IMG/VR virus record: IMGVR_UViG_3300003324_000266
Location: 2,152 to 36,580 of that record
Length of the DNA: 34,429 nt
Origin: a virus
Strand: one strand, 5' to 3'
Shown here piece after piece: positions 16,286 through 34,429 of this stretch (position 1 is the stretch's first letter; the number at the start of each line of letters is the position of its first letter). The notes below the pieces were generated by a model. That model worked only from the letters and a program-made list of their open reading frames with translations. It had not been told where the DNA came from and ran no database searches. The position numbers and the translations under genes are program-made.

Positions 16286-16449
16286 CGCAATCAATCCAGC
16301 AACGATTGGAATACTTGCGAGGCCAGTTGCGAGCCGAACGCATCAGCTATGACGAATTACACGAATTGCAGAGTCTAGCGAAGTACATTGATCCATCGGA
16401 CGTGGAATTACTCGAAGCGGCAGGAGTACCGGAGCACGACGAACAATGA
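16282..16449 (+). CDS. Unknown 55-aa protein
   Basis: The frame begins ATG 16282 (ATGA overlap) and reads MTQSIQQRLEYLRGQLRAER, then YDELHELQSLAKYIDPSDVELLEAAG. It is almost wholly helical. The 'RAERISYDELHELQSLA.YI...D.ELLEWAG' pattern is common in small phage proteins adjacent to metabolic genes. It overlaps the flavoprotein gene by 4 bases. No known function. Confidence 0.65.
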   Translation: MTQSIQQRLEYLRGQLRAERISYDELHELQSLAKYIDPSDVELLEAAGVPEHDEQ

Positions 16450-17402
16450 CGTACGACATCGCCATTATCGGAGGAGGTCCTGCTGGTTTGTCCGCAGCGC
16501 TCAATGCTGCGGCTGATGGATTCTCTGCGCTTGTACTAGAAGCACAGGAGAACATAGGCGGACAGGCGAAGCACACAGACGCCATTGAGAACTATGGCGG
16601 ACACGCGCGTGTCAGTGGTTCGGCGCTATGTGACCTTACCTACCGTCAAGGCCTGTCGTTTGGTGCGCGTTACTCGTTGGGCGATCCGGTCTTAGACATC
16701 GCGAGGGATGGCGATAGGCGCATTGTACTGGCGGATAGTGGCGAATATGCCGCACGCGCGGTACTCATCGCGGCGGGTCAACGCTGGCGCCGATTAGGGT
16801 GTAGTGAGGAGCATTGTTTCCTCGGTAGGGGTATCTACTACGGTGCGAGGCCTGAGGATGCCCAACGCCACGAAGGACAGGATGTAGTGATTGTGGGTGG
16901 GGCGAATAGTGCGGGACAGGCTGCACTCTATTGGAGTACATATGCGCGCCACATCTATCTAGTGATCCGCGCAGAGTCGATTGATGCTAGCATGAGCGCG
17001 TATCTCATCGAGCGCATATTGCGCACGCCTAACATTACGGTCTTATGCGAATGTGAGCTAACGCGCGCTCATGGTGAGGCGGAGTTATCGCGGATTACGT
17101 TGCAAGGCCGCGATTGGGCCGCGGACGTAGATGCGCGTGCGGTGCTTATCTTTATCGGGAGTGAGCCTGCCACGCATTGGCTCCCTAAGGAGATCGAGCG
17201 CAACGAACGCGGCTTTATTCGTACTGATGCGTTCTTTCGTACGACGATGGGCGGAGTATTCGCCATAGGCGATGTGCGGGATGGCATAGCGAAACGAGTC
17301 GGCGCGGCCATGGGCGATGGATCGGCAGCTATAAGCTGCGTTGCGCGCTACCTCAAGGGCGTTCCTTTGCCTGAGGCTAAACCATTGATGGTGACAGTAT
17401 GA
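16446..17402 (+). CDS. Thioredoxin-reductase-like flavoprotein lacking the redox CxxC
   Basis: The 318-aa protein has both dinucleotide domains of the low-molecular-weight thioredoxin reductase fold. The FAD motif GGGPAG is at residues 9-14 and GGQ at 38-40. The NAD(P)H motif GGANSAG is at 151-157, and the second FAD motif VFAIGDVRDG is at 271-280. Where true thioredoxin reductases have GRGVSYCATCDG, this reads GRGIYYGARPEDAQ, so the disulfide is missing. The sequence LIxERIxxTPNI and SAGQAALY match a CxxC-less subgroup often encoded in bacterial chromosomes. It may oxidise NAD(P)H with a partner or act as a sensor. It is unusual in a phage. Confidence 0.88.
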   Translation: MTYDIAIIGGGPAGLSAALNAAADGFSALVLEAQENIGGQAKHTDAIENYGGHARVSGSALCDLTYRQGLSFGARYSLGDPVLDIARDGDRRIVLADSGEYAARAVLIAAGQRWRRLGCSEEHCFLGRGIYYGARPEDAQRHEGQDVVIVGGANSAGQAALYWSTYARHIYLVIRAESIDASMSAYLIERILRTPNITVLCECELTRAHGEAELSRITLQGRDWAADVDARAVLIFIGSEPATHWLPKEIERNERGFIRTDAFFRTTMGGVFAIGDVRDGIAKRVGAAMGDGSAAISCVARYLKGVPLPEAKPLMVTV

Positions 17403-29237: not shown

Positions 29238-31520
29238 ATGGCTCGCACTCCCAAACCCGAAGGATGTAACGCTTGCCCTCTTCAACCGATTGGAGAGGGT
29301 TTCGTTCGCATCAGCCTCCCGAGCGACTACGACAACGTGAAGCTGCTCGTCCAAGGCGAGGCGCCGACGCGTGACGACGCGGATGAGTCGATCCCGTTCG
29401 TCGGCAAACCGGGCCATTGGATACGGAAGAACATTCTCGCCAACGCAGGATTAGCGGAGGGACAGGTCATTTTCGACAATACCCTCCGCTGCCTACCTCC
29501 GACCAATAAGAAGGGAGAGCACTATCCCATCGGGGAAGTGAAGGCGCTTGCAGAACAACACTGCCGCCAGTACGACGTGTGGGAACAAACCCCTAAGTCG
29601 ATCCCTCTCCTTCTCGTCGGCGGTAAGGCGCTGGCGCAGCGCACAGGAAGGGAGTCGATCAGCGAATGGCACGGACATATCGAGATGATCGAGGGTCGGC
29701 TAACCGGCGCGACCTTTCACCCCGCGGCTGTAATGAGACAGCCGAACCTGTTGCCGGTAGCGATCAGAGAGACAGCGAACCTGCTCGAAGCTGCTCGCAA
29801 TCCGGCAGTGCTGCGTCGGCCTGAGGTGGTGAAGGGGAACGTCCCGTATCTACAGAAGCCTGAGGTCGTCGTCGATCTCGAATGGAACCCCGGTACGCAG
29901 GAACTCACTGTAGTTGGCGTGGCATACGAGCGCGACCGAGCCTACTCGACGTACCACGTTAGCGAAGGCTTGGAGGTGGTACGCCAGCATTTCGCTGACG
30001 GACGGCGAGTGATTGGTCACAACTTCATCAAGGCCGATCTACCTCGCATTGGCGCACTACCGAAGACGTGGGGGCCGGAGCACATCATCGACACGATGGT
30101 GGTGGGACACCTTGTTCATTCCCACTTGGCTGAGTTGGGTTTGCTCGACCTTGGTTCGCTGACTCGCTACTACGAACCCACCTCGAACTGGAAGACCGAG
30201 AAGGGCGATCTGCTGCTCTATAACGGCCTCGATAATGCGTACAACTATCGGCTGTGGAAAGGAATCGAGCGCGATCTCACGCTAACGGATCAATGGCACC
30301 TCGTAGAGAAGCAACAGAAGCTCGCGCGTATGAGCGCGTTGATGCAGGAACAGGGGATACGAATTGATAAGGATGCCATTGTCGCCTTTCATAGCGATTG
30401 GCGTGAGCAGCGGTCAACTGCTGCTTCAGGCTTTCCGTTCAATCCGAACTCCCCGAAGCAAGTCAAAGCGTACTTCGAGGAGCGTGGGGTTCGTCTCAAC
30501 GACACCTCGTACGACACCATCGTCAAAGCGGCCAAGCGGAGTAAAGAAGGTTCTGAGGTAAGGGAGACGCTTGACAAGCTAGTCGAGTACAAGGACGCCG
30601 GGAAGTCGCTGCGGACGTGGTTCAACGAAGAGGCGGAGAGCCGCGGCTACATATATCCGGAGTTCAAGGAGACCGGCACCGACGTGGCACGGTTCTCCTG
30701 TAGCGGCCCGAACTGCCAGAACATCCCACCGCACTTACGCCACATCATCACGCCTCGCGACCCGGAGCTGATCCTCGCGGCGTTCGATGGTTCGCAGATC
30801 GAGAACCGGACAGTGGCGTGGATTGCCGACGAGAAGGCCATGTTAGCGGCGTTCGCGAGCGGCGCTGACTTCCATCGCCTCAATGCGGCGAACATTCAGT
30901 CGATGCTACAAGGCATCCGCGTGACGCCGGAGATGGTGACGAAGGAGCAGCGGCAGCAGGGTAAGACGGTCACGCACGCGACGGACTACAAGGAGACGCC
31001 GTTCAATCTCGCCCGCCGACTGTTCGGCAATACGAAGCGAGAGGCGCTTGATAAGGCGAAGGCGCTACAGGGCGCGTTCTTCAAGGCCTACCCGCGTATC
31101 CGTGAGTGGCACTCCGAACTTGAGAAGCAGTTCGAGCGCGGTGAAGTGATGCTCCGCTCTCCGTTCGGTCGGGCGCGAATGGTGTACGCCCCTGACGCGC
31201 ATGAGTTCGCCAAGAGAGCGAGTCACTTCCTCGGCTGTTCGAGTGCGGCGGACATCATCAACTCCGCGGCGATCCAGATATGGGAGCAGTTAGGACTGCT
31301 GCCGATCCTCATCGTTCATGACGAGCTGGTGTATGAGCTGCCGCGCGGCGAGGAGGGCCGCAAGCTCGCTGTACAGATCAAATCGATTATGGAGGAGCCG
31401 GTAAGCGAGATGGGAGGTTTGGTTATTCCAGCGGTAGCGAAGTTCGGGGTGAATTACGGGACGCTAAAGGAGGCCGTCGAGCCGAATGAGCTTGAGAAGG
31501 TGTTCTATGCGGCGGCTTAA
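29238..31520 (+). CDS. DNA polymerase: uracil-DNA glycosylase domain fused to PolA-type core
   Basis: The 760-aa protein has three parts. Residues 1-185 are a family-4-type uracil-DNA glycosylase: Cys10, 13, 85 and 109 could bind 4Fe-4S, GEAPTRDDADESIPFVG is near 40-56, and HPAA is at 161-164. Residues about 205-370 are a 3'-5' exonuclease: DLEW at about 212, HNFIKADL at 260, YNGLDNAYN at 327. The rest is a family A polymerase core: motif A FDGSQIENR at about 516, motif B HATDYKETPFNLA at about 577, motif C IVHDELVYEL at about 692. No 5'-3' exonuclease is present. The glycosylase fusion resembles the UDG-like part reported for SPO1 polymerase. Confidence 0.9.
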   Translation: MARTPKPEGCNACPLQPIGEGFVRISLPSDYDNVKLLVQGEAPTRDDADESIPFVGKPGHWIRKNILANAGLAEGQVIFDNTLRCLPPTNKKGEHYPIGEVKALAEQHCRQYDVWEQTPKSIPLLLVGGKALAQRTGRESISEWHGHIEMIEGRLTGATFHPAAVMRQPNLLPVAIRETANLLEAARNPAVLRRPEVVKGNVPYLQKPEVVVDLEWNPGTQELTVVGVAYERDRAYSTYHVSEGLEVVRQHFADGRRVIGHNFIKADLPRIGALPKTWGPEHIIDTMVVGHLVHSHLAELGLLDLGSLTRYYEPTSNWKTEKGDLLLYNGLDNAYNYRLWKGIERDLTLTDQWHLVEKQQKLARMSALMQEQGIRIDKDAIVAFHSDWREQRSTAASGFPFNPNSPKQVKAYFEERGVRLNDTSYDTIVKAAKRSKEGSEVRETLDKLVEYKDAGKSLRTWFNEEAESRGYIYPEFKETGTDVARFSCSGPNCQNIPPHLRHIITPRDPELILAAFDGSQIENRTVAWIADEKAMLAAFASGADFHRLNAANIQSMLQGIRVTPEMVTKEQRQQGKTVTHATDYKETPFNLARRLFGNTKREALDKAKALQGAFFKAYPRIREWHSELEKQFERGEVMLRSPFGRARMVYAPDAHEFAKRASHFLGCSSAADIINSAAIQIWEQLGLLPILIVHDELVYELPRGEEGRKLAVQIKSIMEEPVSEMGGLVIPAVAKFGVNYGTLKEAVEPNELEKVFYAAA

Positions 31521-33002: not shown

Positions 33003-34163
33003 ATGGCCCGTAAGCGATACCAGAAGGGTATGCTCTTTCTACGGGGTAAGCGCACTCCGGTATGGGTTGCGCGGTGGCGGGAGGATGAGACGACCCCGCA
33101 AGGCGGGGATCGACGTATCCTCCGTTCTGTGGTGATCGGCACAAAGGCTGACATCCCGACCAAACGCCTCGCGCAACGTGAACTGGAGCGGCGGCTTGCC
33201 TCAATCAACTCCCCCGACTATCGCCCCACGGTAGCCCTCAGCTTCTCCGAGCTGGTGACGAAGTGGGAGGCGATGGTCTTGCCGTCCTATAAGGCGTCTG
33301 TCCAACGTCAGTACCGGATGGACGTGCGAAATCACCTCTTACCGGCCTTCGGGATGTCGAGGTTGGGCAGCATAACAACCGAGACGCTTCAGAAGTACGC
33401 TGCGGCGTTCAAGGGATCGCCTAAGACGCTCCACAATGTCCTTGCGGTCATGCGTGCGGTATGGCGCTCCGCTAAGGCGTGGGGTTATGTCAAGCACGAT
33501 CCGTTTGAGGCGGTTGTGCTGCCGAAGCAAACGAAGCCCGAGCCGAAGCTGTTCACTCTTGATGAGGCGCAGCAGCTCATACGTGAGGCGCCGGAACCGC
33601 TAAAGACGATGTTGTGGATCACGGCGGAGACCGGCGTACGTGCGGGTGAGTTAGTCGCTCTGCGTAAAGAGGACGTTGACGTGCGAGGGCGGATCGTTCG
33701 TGTACGTCAGAGCCTCTGGCGTGGTCAGGTACAGACGCCTAAGAGCCGCGCCGGGGTGCGGTCGTTCAGCATCTCGCCGGGGCTTGCGGAACATCTGACG
33801 CAGCGTGTTAGCGGAGAGGGGCTGCTGTTCCTTAACCGCCTTGGTCGTCCCTTCTCGCAATCGAAGCTGGTTGAGAAGCATCTCAAGCCGCTCTGTACGC
33901 GCCTCGGCATTGAGCCTCGGGGCTTACACGCGCTGAGACACTTCAACGCCACGGTACTCGATCAGCTTGGAGTGCCGGTGAAGGTACGGCAATCGAGGTT
34001 AGGCCACAGCACAGCGATGGTCACGCTCGATCGCTACACGCATCAGATCACCACCGATGACGTGATTGCGGCAGAGAAGCTCGGTGCGATATTGTTCCCA
34101 ACTGTTCCCAACAACACGACGGCCCCACCACTCGCTAGTGATGAGGCCGTTGGGGTTCAGTAG
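33003..34163 (+). CDS. int: Tyrosine-type integrase
   Basis: The start ATG 33003 follows GAAGGGTTGAAG; the ATG at 32946 lacks a ribosome site. The N-terminal arm (ARKRYQKGMLFLRGKRTPVW) is followed by a SAM-like core-binding domain. The catalytic set in this numbering is R213 (GVRAGEL), K247 (TPKSRAG), H309 and R312 (HALRHFN), H335 (LGHS) and Y345 (DRYTH). It catalyses site-specific recombination between attP and attB. The last 30 residues overlap two TGTTCCCAA arm-type repeats of the attP. A hairpin-T-tract terminator lies 85 bases downstream. Confidence 0.93.
   Translation: MARKRYQKGMLFLRGKRTPVWVARWREDETTPQGGDRRILRSVVIGTKADIPTKRLAQRELERRLASINSPDYRPTVALSFSELVTKWEAMVLPSYKASVQRQYRMDVRNHLLPAFGMSRLGSITTETLQKYAAAFKGSPKTLHNVLAVMRAVWRSAKAWGYVKHDPFEAVVLPKQTKPEPKLFTLDEAQQLIREAPEPLKTMLWITAETGVRAGELVALRKEDVDVRGRIVRVRQSLWRGQVQTPKSRAGVRSFSISPGLAEHLTQRVSGEGLLFLNRLGRPFSQSKLVEKHLKPLCTRLGIEPRGLHALRHFNATVLDQLGVPVKVRQSRLGHSTAMVTLDRYTHQITTDDVIAAEKLGAILFPTVPNNTTAPPLASDEAVGVQ
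34094..34111 (+). repeat. Left pair of TGTTCCCAA direct repeats (possible P arm)
   Basis: GTTCCCAA begins at 34094 and 34104, 10 bases (about one helical turn) apart, inside the 3' end of the integrase gene. The same motif is paired at 34300 and 34311 on the other side of the tRNA-like core. Confidence 0.6.
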
Positions 34164-34176
34164 GTTATGAAGGATT

Positions 34177-34185
34177 GACCGCAGG
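34177..34185 (-). repeat. CCTGCGGTC copy, inverted
   Basis: CCTGCGGTC on the minus strand, just before the tRNA-like core. Two direct copies lie at 34258-34266 and 34380-34388 on the plus strand. The 9-mer would not be expected three times in 212 bases by chance. Confidence 0.5.
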
Positions 34186-34190
34186 AAACG

Positions 34191-34229
34191 TGGTCGGGGC
34201 GGCAGGATTCGAACCTGTCTCCCGACCGC
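34191..34229 (-). other. attP core: 3' end of a tRNA-Pro-like gene
   Basis: On the minus strand the sequence runs GGTCGGGAGACAGG, T-loop TTCGAAT, then CCTGCCGCCCCGACCA, the 3' half of a tRNA ending in CCA. No CGGGGCG partner for the acceptor occurs in the 100 bases 5' of it, so the gene is incomplete. CGCCCCGACCA matches tRNA-Pro 3' ends. GGTCGGG and CCCGACC (34192-34198 and 34221-34227) also form an inverted pair, as core-type integrase sites do. Confidence 0.7.
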
Positions 34230-34246
34230 TAACTTATTGTTGATAC

Positions 34247-34280
34247 GGCTGGCCTTACCTGCGGTCAGCCTTATTTTTTC
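34247..34280 (+). terminator. Rho-independent terminator after the integrase
   Basis: GGCTGGCC and GGTCAGCC (one mismatch) form a stem around TTACCTGC, followed by TTATTTTTT. It faces the plus-strand integrase transcript and overlaps one CCTGCGGTC copy. It lies just right of the tRNA-like core. Confidence 0.7.
34258..34266 (+). repeat. CCTGCGGTC copy, direct
   Basis: Second copy of the 9-mer, overlapping the terminator stem. Copies are at 34177 (inverted) and 34380 (direct). Confidence 0.5.
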
Positions 34281-34283
34281 GCC

Positions 34284-34429
34284 TTAAAGTGGGTGTTTTG
34301 TTCCCAAGATGTTCCCAACTTCGCTCACGGATACTTCGAGCGGCGAGCCGTCCGGTAGAAAGAAGCAGATCGATGTGAGCCTGCGGTCGTTTAAACGCTT
34401 CAAGGTGAGGATACCGAACAACATCTCCT
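34284..34429 (-). CDS. Partial minus-strand gene running in from the right edge
   Basis: The minus frame from 34429 to TAA 34286-34284 is open for over 45 codons and has the look of a real C-terminus (MLFGILTLKRLNDRRLTSIC, then FFLPDGSPLEVSVSEVGNIL). Its start is outside the window. The last codons overlap the right TGTTCCCAA pair. The product is unknown; possibly a minus-strand regulator or lysogeny gene next to attP. Confidence 0.4.
   Translation of the reverse strand, partial: EMLFGILTLKRLNDRRLTSICFFLPDGSPLEVSVSEVGNILGTKHPL
34300..34318 (+). repeat. Right pair of TGTTCCCAA direct repeats (possible P' arm)
   Basis: GTTCCCAA begins at 34300 and 34311, 11 bases apart and in the same orientation as the left pair, about as far from the core as the left pair. 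Confidence 0.6.
34380..34388 (+). repeat. CCTGCGGTC copy, direct
   Basis: Third copy of the 9-mer, inside the partial minus-strand ORF at the right edge. Confidence 0.45.

Follow-up and report, generated by a model that had tools for sequence, protein, structure and literature searches.

A probable complete attP in a viral contig, with paired putative integrase arm sites flanking a tRNA-Pro 3' end

The stretch of DNA analyzed here (34,429 nucleotides, hereafter the window) very probably carries, at positions 34093–34318, a full attP, through which a temperate phage would insert itself at the 3' end of a tRNA-Pro gene by means of its own tyrosine integrase; on the basis of sequence comparison, we assign this reading a probability of about 0.9. 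It rests on the anatomy of the region and on integrated relatives in which these components are divided, some at one end and some at the other. The window corresponds to bases 2152–36580 of a linear virus record of 36,580 bases (IMG/VR IMGVR_UViG_3300003324_000266), with which it shares its right end, 111 bases after the outermost arm site P'2. The features of the region are compiled in Table 1.

Table 1. Features of the integrase gene and the putative attP, with positions in the window.
Feature	Positions	Strand	Description	Basis
Tyrosine integrase, 386 aa	33003..34163	+	Predicted N-terminal three-stranded-sheet-plus-helix, SAM-like core-binding and catalytic domains	Pfam PF00589 (6e-19), PF14659, PF22022
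Putative proximal arm-site pair P1/P2	34093..34111	+	TGTTCCCAA-C-TGTTCCCAA; 10-bp start-to-start period; within the int reading frame (LFPTVP)	Acidobacteriota relatives have it at their int 3' ends
Inverted repeat, left half TGACCGCAGG	34176..34185	+	10-bp perfect repeat that spans the core; holds the inverted CCTGCGGTC	
Putative attP core	34190..34217	-	T-arm to CCA plus one base	28-bp match to tRNA-Pro 3' end
Conserved block TGTTGATACGGCTGGCCTTACCTGCGGT	34238..34265	+	28 nt	Matrix from relatives
Intrinsic-terminator-like hairpin, then TTATTTTTT	34247..34270	+	Same orientation as int; lies past the core	
Inverted repeat, right half CCTGCGGTCA	34258..34267	+	Shares positions with the conserved block and with the terminator-like hairpin	
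Putative distal arm-site pair P'1/P'2	34299..34318	+	TGTTCCCAA-GA-TGTTCCCAA; 11-bp start-to-start period	Integrated relatives have it next to the core copy, at the end away from int

The motif TGTTCCCAA is present four times in the 34 kb of the window (34093–34101, 34103–34111, 34299–34307 and 34310–34318), always on the + strand, a number that was reached in none of 100 dinucleotide shuffles. This agrees with the original prediction of four copies in one orientation, two on each side of a tRNA 3' end and about one helical turn apart within each pair. The repeats are also where that prediction had placed the start of the region (34094), except that the first pair begins one base earlier, within the coding part of the integrase gene. 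When a 321-bp sequence of this composition was shuffled 3000 times, some 9-mer reached at least three occurrences in 2 shuffles, and therefore both TGTTCCCAA and a second repeat family, CCTGCGGTC, exceed what is expected by chance.

Five integrated Acidobacteria elements were readable at both ends. At the int end, the integrase coding sequence contains a TGTTCCCAA pair in its terminal part, and the integration target, an intact tRNA gene in three of the five, comes next; at the opposite end, the target core is repeated, together with another TGTTCCCAA pair. Locus L364 (genome G009) has the integrase gene, a pair with a 1-nt spacer and an intact tRNA-Gln gene, and at a distance of 7 kb, 44 bp of the tRNA 3' part are repeated ahead of a pair with a 2-nt spacer; the same split arrangement is seen at a tRNA-Met gene across 28 kb in genome G001 (L365/L366). 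Genome G003 contains three end pairs, assigned to each other by shared core and not by read-through, of which two apparently target protein genes with 14-bp cores. Related integrases of this genome (L044, L140, L368 and L369) apparently use the 14-bp cores GTCATGCCGGGGAT and GTCATCCGCGAGAT, in protein genes and not in tRNA genes.

When the ends of the five relatives were rejoined, the distance from the core end to the distal pair was 86, 82, 85, 83 and 83 nt, compared to 81 in the window (34217 to 34299). Between the proximal pair and the end of the core, the distance was 103–104 in three relatives and 80 and 160 in the other two, compared to 106 in the window. Both att halves of the window match those of integrated Acidobacteria elements almost to the base. 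The attL and attR pairs of the relatives, with the same arms and spacing, support the earlier proposals that the TGTTCCCAA copies are probable integrase arm sites and that the region, with arms on both sides of its core, is a complete attP. That the region is instead an attL or attR, at the border of an integrated prophage, or what remains of a decayed tRNA gene, is worth considering since many viral contigs carry the core as part of tRNA genes or clusters and IMG/VR contains proviruses. We regard this as very improbable, because the attL and attR sites of the relatives have one arm pair each and their int-side end usually has an intact tRNA gene, whereas in the window a single core lies between both arm pairs, with no tRNA 5' half and with spacings like those of the rejoined relatives.

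Since neither host DNA nor a tRNA 5' half intervenes between the core and the two sets of arms, the sequence supports an unintegrated phage, as had been predicted. The accompanying suggestion of a circular genome was not supported: the record is classed as linear and no overlap of at least 15 bp was found between the contig ends. A run of N directly before the window start (L002:2140–2151) indicates that the record is a scaffold, or masked, at that point. A DNA similarity search against phage records returned no match. Elsewhere in the window, a single reading frame (29238–31520) combines a uracil-DNA-glycosylase domain (residues 32–171) with a family A DNA polymerase domain (residues 390–721), and the protein encoded at 16446–17402 has a Pfam match to pyridine-nucleotide-disulphide oxidoreductase and the PHROG label ribonucleotide reductase large subunit.

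The core of the putative attP begins 27 bp past the int stop codon and, in line with the prediction that the integrase lies on its 3' side, the integrase gene reads along the + strand and the tRNA end along the - strand. Positions 34191–34217 (27 bp) were found exactly in tRNA-Pro(TGG) genes of several contigs, and the complete 28-bp core in the tRNA-Pro gene of one Acidobacteriota genome; at the level of a sequence match, the proposed tRNA-Pro target is supported. Following the core, real tRNA genes continue with CGACC or a near variant and the anticodon arm, while the window continues with TCTCCCGACC. Since TCTCCCGACC is not readable as an anticodon arm, we place the end of the core in the T-arm, at 34217. 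The original prediction had extended the core to 34229 and suggested searching bacterial genomes for an intact tRNA-Pro gene with a 3' end matching 34191–34229. Such genes matched as far as 34217, but 34218–34229 had no match in them, and the longer core was replaced by one of 27–28 bp. An extension to the anticodon loop, as in most relatives, was also rejected, given that 34218–34237 is unreadable as a tRNA anticodon arm; the tRNA-targeting relatives have longer cores than the window, reaching the anticodon arm. No tRNA was detected in a tRNA search of the window, consistent with the predicted absence of the tRNA 5' half. The sequences GGTCGGG (34192–34198) and CCCGACC (34221–34227), noted previously, are both present. 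Around the T-arm (34192–34227), the core folds with them like a tRNA acceptor plus T-arm hairpin, of which the second half is not tRNA sequence. Compared by eye, the two sequences were not consistent in the five rejoined relatives and were discarded as a conserved feature.

The exact core was found in one of 396 Acidobacteriota genomes, which did not contain an integrated form of the window phage, and a host search for the exact core near the best integrase relative was negative in all 51 genomes covered. From the relatives of its integrase and att site among Acidobacteriota, phage records and fetched loci, the host of the phage is probably a member of the Acidobacteriota. The closest integrase in this same set, encoded at locus L383 of an Acidobacteriota genome, is 44% identical and has a tRNA-Met target; its pair is degenerate (TGTGTCCAA and TGTGGCCAA). 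A search of viral contigs with the integrase retrieved one relative, on a contig that ends before the att site.

The catalytic set R213, K247, H309, R312, H335 and Y345 of the integrase was invariant in an alignment of nine sequences. In the structural model of the protein (pLDDT 82), three strands and a helix (E10–14, E20–30, E36–47 and H54–68) are predicted to precede the SAM-like domain, which is the fold expected of an arm-binding domain; no Pfam arm-domain family matched the protein. Foldseek comparisons of the model matched Tn1549 Int (8e-11) and lambda Int (5e-8; 1z1b). No excisionase gene was recognized among the ORFs scanned near int and elsewhere, and a promoter scan of 33900–34429 was negative. 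A minus-strand gene ending in the distal arms was also considered; two frames are open there for just 36 codons to the contig end, and the idea was dropped as uninformative.

By analogy to lambda-type integrases, the N-terminal domain of the integrase would bind the paired TGTTCCCAA sites, both P1/P2 in the end of its own gene and P'1/P'2 past the core, while the core-binding and catalytic domains would act on the tRNA T-arm sequence at about 34200–34217, where the exact point of strand exchange is presumed to lie. On integration, the tRNA 3' end supplied by the phage, together with P1/P2 and the integrase gene, would come to adjoin the 5' part of the host tRNA gene, so that this gene would stay intact, and P'1/P'2 would be carried to the opposite end of the prophage.

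At least 119 loci with paired TGTTCCCAA were found in genomes, with Acidobacteria prominent among the matches listed. In about a dozen of the matches listed, the pair lies in the last 30–75 bases of an integrase gene, and in most of these a tRNA 3' end comes next, on the opposite strand. A tyrosine recombinase was detected within 500 bp of the pair at 31 of the 119 genome loci (among the matches listed) and at 6 of 14 viral loci, in contrast with none of 107 viral loci for a mirrored control pattern, a comparison in which the control covers viral loci only and the detector is a model grown from the integrase of the window itself. The peptide read from the pair is FPxVP where the spacer is 1 nt and LFPICSQ where it is 2 nt and, since the two spacers give different peptides, it is the DNA and not the peptide that is conserved. 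In five prophages with a distant integrase type (L006, L010, L012, L028 and L047), two of them in Pseudomonas genomes, TGTTCCCAAAGTGTTCCCAAA is located between int and the end of a tRNA-Leu or tRNA-Ser gene.

We also inspected 29 Acidobacteriota integrase loci that had been chosen by protein similarity only. A tandem repeat with a spacing of 10 or 11 bp was present near the int stop codon at 14 loci, some of which may not be arm sites, vs. 0.45 expected, and other repeat spacings were found at 0–2 loci. Tandems of 10/11 bp other than TGTTCCCAA were seen in this position at L383, L385, L386, L388, L390, L391, L395, L402 and L410 (TGGACCCAA, TGGTGACGA, TTGCACTGG, GGGAGTAAA and others). These data also bear on whether TGTTCCCAA might be an operator or replication-initiation site of another phage protein that lies near attP by chance. 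Many scattered copies of the motif and its complement, with no obvious att site, occur at L011:2105–2600, L014:9491–9990 and around 11290 of L009, and some proteins may use the motif otherwise. For the window, such an explanation is highly unlikely: its four copies are placed around the core at fixed distances, integrated relatives have one pair per end, pairs adjoin tyrosine recombinases far more often than the mirrored control does, and relatives with a different motif keep a 10/11-bp tandem pair at the same place.

Returning to the arm-site reading, we consider it an even bet that this Acidobacteriota integrase family keeps its proximal arms as a 10/11-bp tandem located at the 3' terminus of the integrase gene or close to it, often in frame, with a repeat that varies by integrase (TGTTCCCAA, TGGACCCAA, TGGTGACGA, TTGCACTGG, GGGAGTAAA and others) while place and spacing remain much the same. 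The tandems would then constitute readable arm-recognition codes, and the TGTTCCCAA code would recur beside unrelated integrases, e.g., in Pseudomonas prophages. Three features may be new, namely the location of arms within int, the conserved block and the series of arm codes; we found no description of them in the open-licence literature, and the papers listed for the motif with integrase were, judged by titles and abstracts, unrelated to att sites. Phage attP sites with both arm sets are seldom documented outside cultured hosts, and the match to the split Acidobacteriota sites indicates which phylum probably hosts this phage and which gene it targets, and delimits a testable minimal attP of about 230 bp. 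Relatives with differing tandems at a similar place would allow the arm specificity of tyrosine integrases to be mapped by comparison only, and the series of arm codes could provide orthogonal integration systems for a little-studied phylum.

A 28-nt block is conserved between the core and the distal arms. With a matrix built from nine relatives, the window being excluded, position 34238 on the + strand ranked first of 68,804 window positions, with 16.4 bits compared to 11.8 for the next one. The block lies 61 bases before the distal pair in the window and about 64 in the distal ends of the relatives. In a leave-one-out analysis of the matrix, the block ranked first in six of the nine relatives and fourth in one, and failed in two; since this succeeds in only part of the relatives, we consider the block a subfamily feature. 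It is perhaps a site for a host protein, a bending protein or an excisionase, the usual assumption for a block between core and arm.

The second repeat, CCTGCGGTC, had been predicted to occur three times and does so in the whole window, with all copies in the att region (34177–34185 on the - strand, and 34258 and 34380 on the + strand), although the first copy is inverted. Its proposed role as a second family of arm-type sites, or of excisionase or IHF-like sites, was not borne out and is doubtful. The three copies lie within 212 bp with none elsewhere in the 34 kb, triples of this kind being as rare in shuffles as stated above, and the copy at 34258 overlaps the conserved block. Against this, one copy is inverted, the one at 34380 lies outside the arms, and the five rejoined relatives have no repeated CCTGCGGTC set: related sequence is found in them only at the position of 34258, where it belongs to the conserved block, and nothing in them corresponds to the inverted copy.

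Slightly less likely still is that the inverted CCTGCGGTC pair acts as an RNA element, reminiscent of lambda sib retroregulation, in which int mRNA transcribed from attP would fold a stem across the core (34176–34185 with 34258–34267) that competes with the terminator-like hairpin and is split on integration. The perfect 10-bp inverted repeat spanning the core is longer than in 99.7% of shuffles (P about 0.003), the RNA fold has a z of -4.7 with the spanning stem in the best structure, and the hairpin uses the right half of the stem. The stem is absent, however, from all five relatives, and the tRNA T-arm and GGTCGGG/CCCGACC account for some of the folding energy.

Among known systems, lambda has an Int with separate N-terminal, core-binding and catalytic parts and arm sites on both sides of the core. 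The integrase of the window is predicted to have the same layout of parts, with a fold match to 1z1b, and has putative arms on both core sides; the sequence and number of the arms are different, an IHF site is not among the features recognized in the window, and the lambda target is intergenic, while that of the window appears to be a tRNA gene. The Acidobacteriota elements (G001, G003, G009 and others), for which no descriptive paper was found in the open-licence literature, share with the window the arm motif, the proximal pair in the int end, a distal spacing within 1–5 nt, a tRNA target in most and the same 28-nt block in most. They differ in that their integrases are 27–38% identical and their targets are tRNA-Gln, tRNA-Met, others and two apparent protein genes.

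The attP of ICEMlSymR7A, recognized by IntS, is 283 bp long and has five TGKTGGTATC sites (PMC11963761). Like the window attP, it is compact, adjoins int and contains several repeated arm motifs, but intS lies downstream of its own attP, which overlaps the presumed intS promoter, whereas int in the window reads toward attP and ends in it (PMC11963761). In the Cluster J mycobacteriophages Omega, BAKA and LittleE, as described in excerpts of the corresponding paper, attP is located 3' of a tyrosine-integrase gene, with a core about 100 bp from the int end that overlaps a tRNA gene, and 10-bp direct-repeat arm pairs P1-P2 and P3-P4 flank the core (PMC3706429). The arm consensus, TGCATACg/tPuPy in Cluster J, is not that of TGTTCCCAA; the Cluster J core has 44 bp and corresponds to tRNA-Leu, compared to the 28 bp and tRNA-Pro of the window, where it begins much closer to the int stop codon; and arm sites in the int reading frame are a feature of the window that these excerpts do not mention for the core-flanking arms of Cluster J (PMC3706429). 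In both cases, paired arm repeats, with periods of 10 and 11 bp in the window, flank a tRNA core shortly past int and, because the Cluster J arrangement is nearly the same as far as it is described there, the putative attP of the window represents a known kind of layout (PMC3706429).
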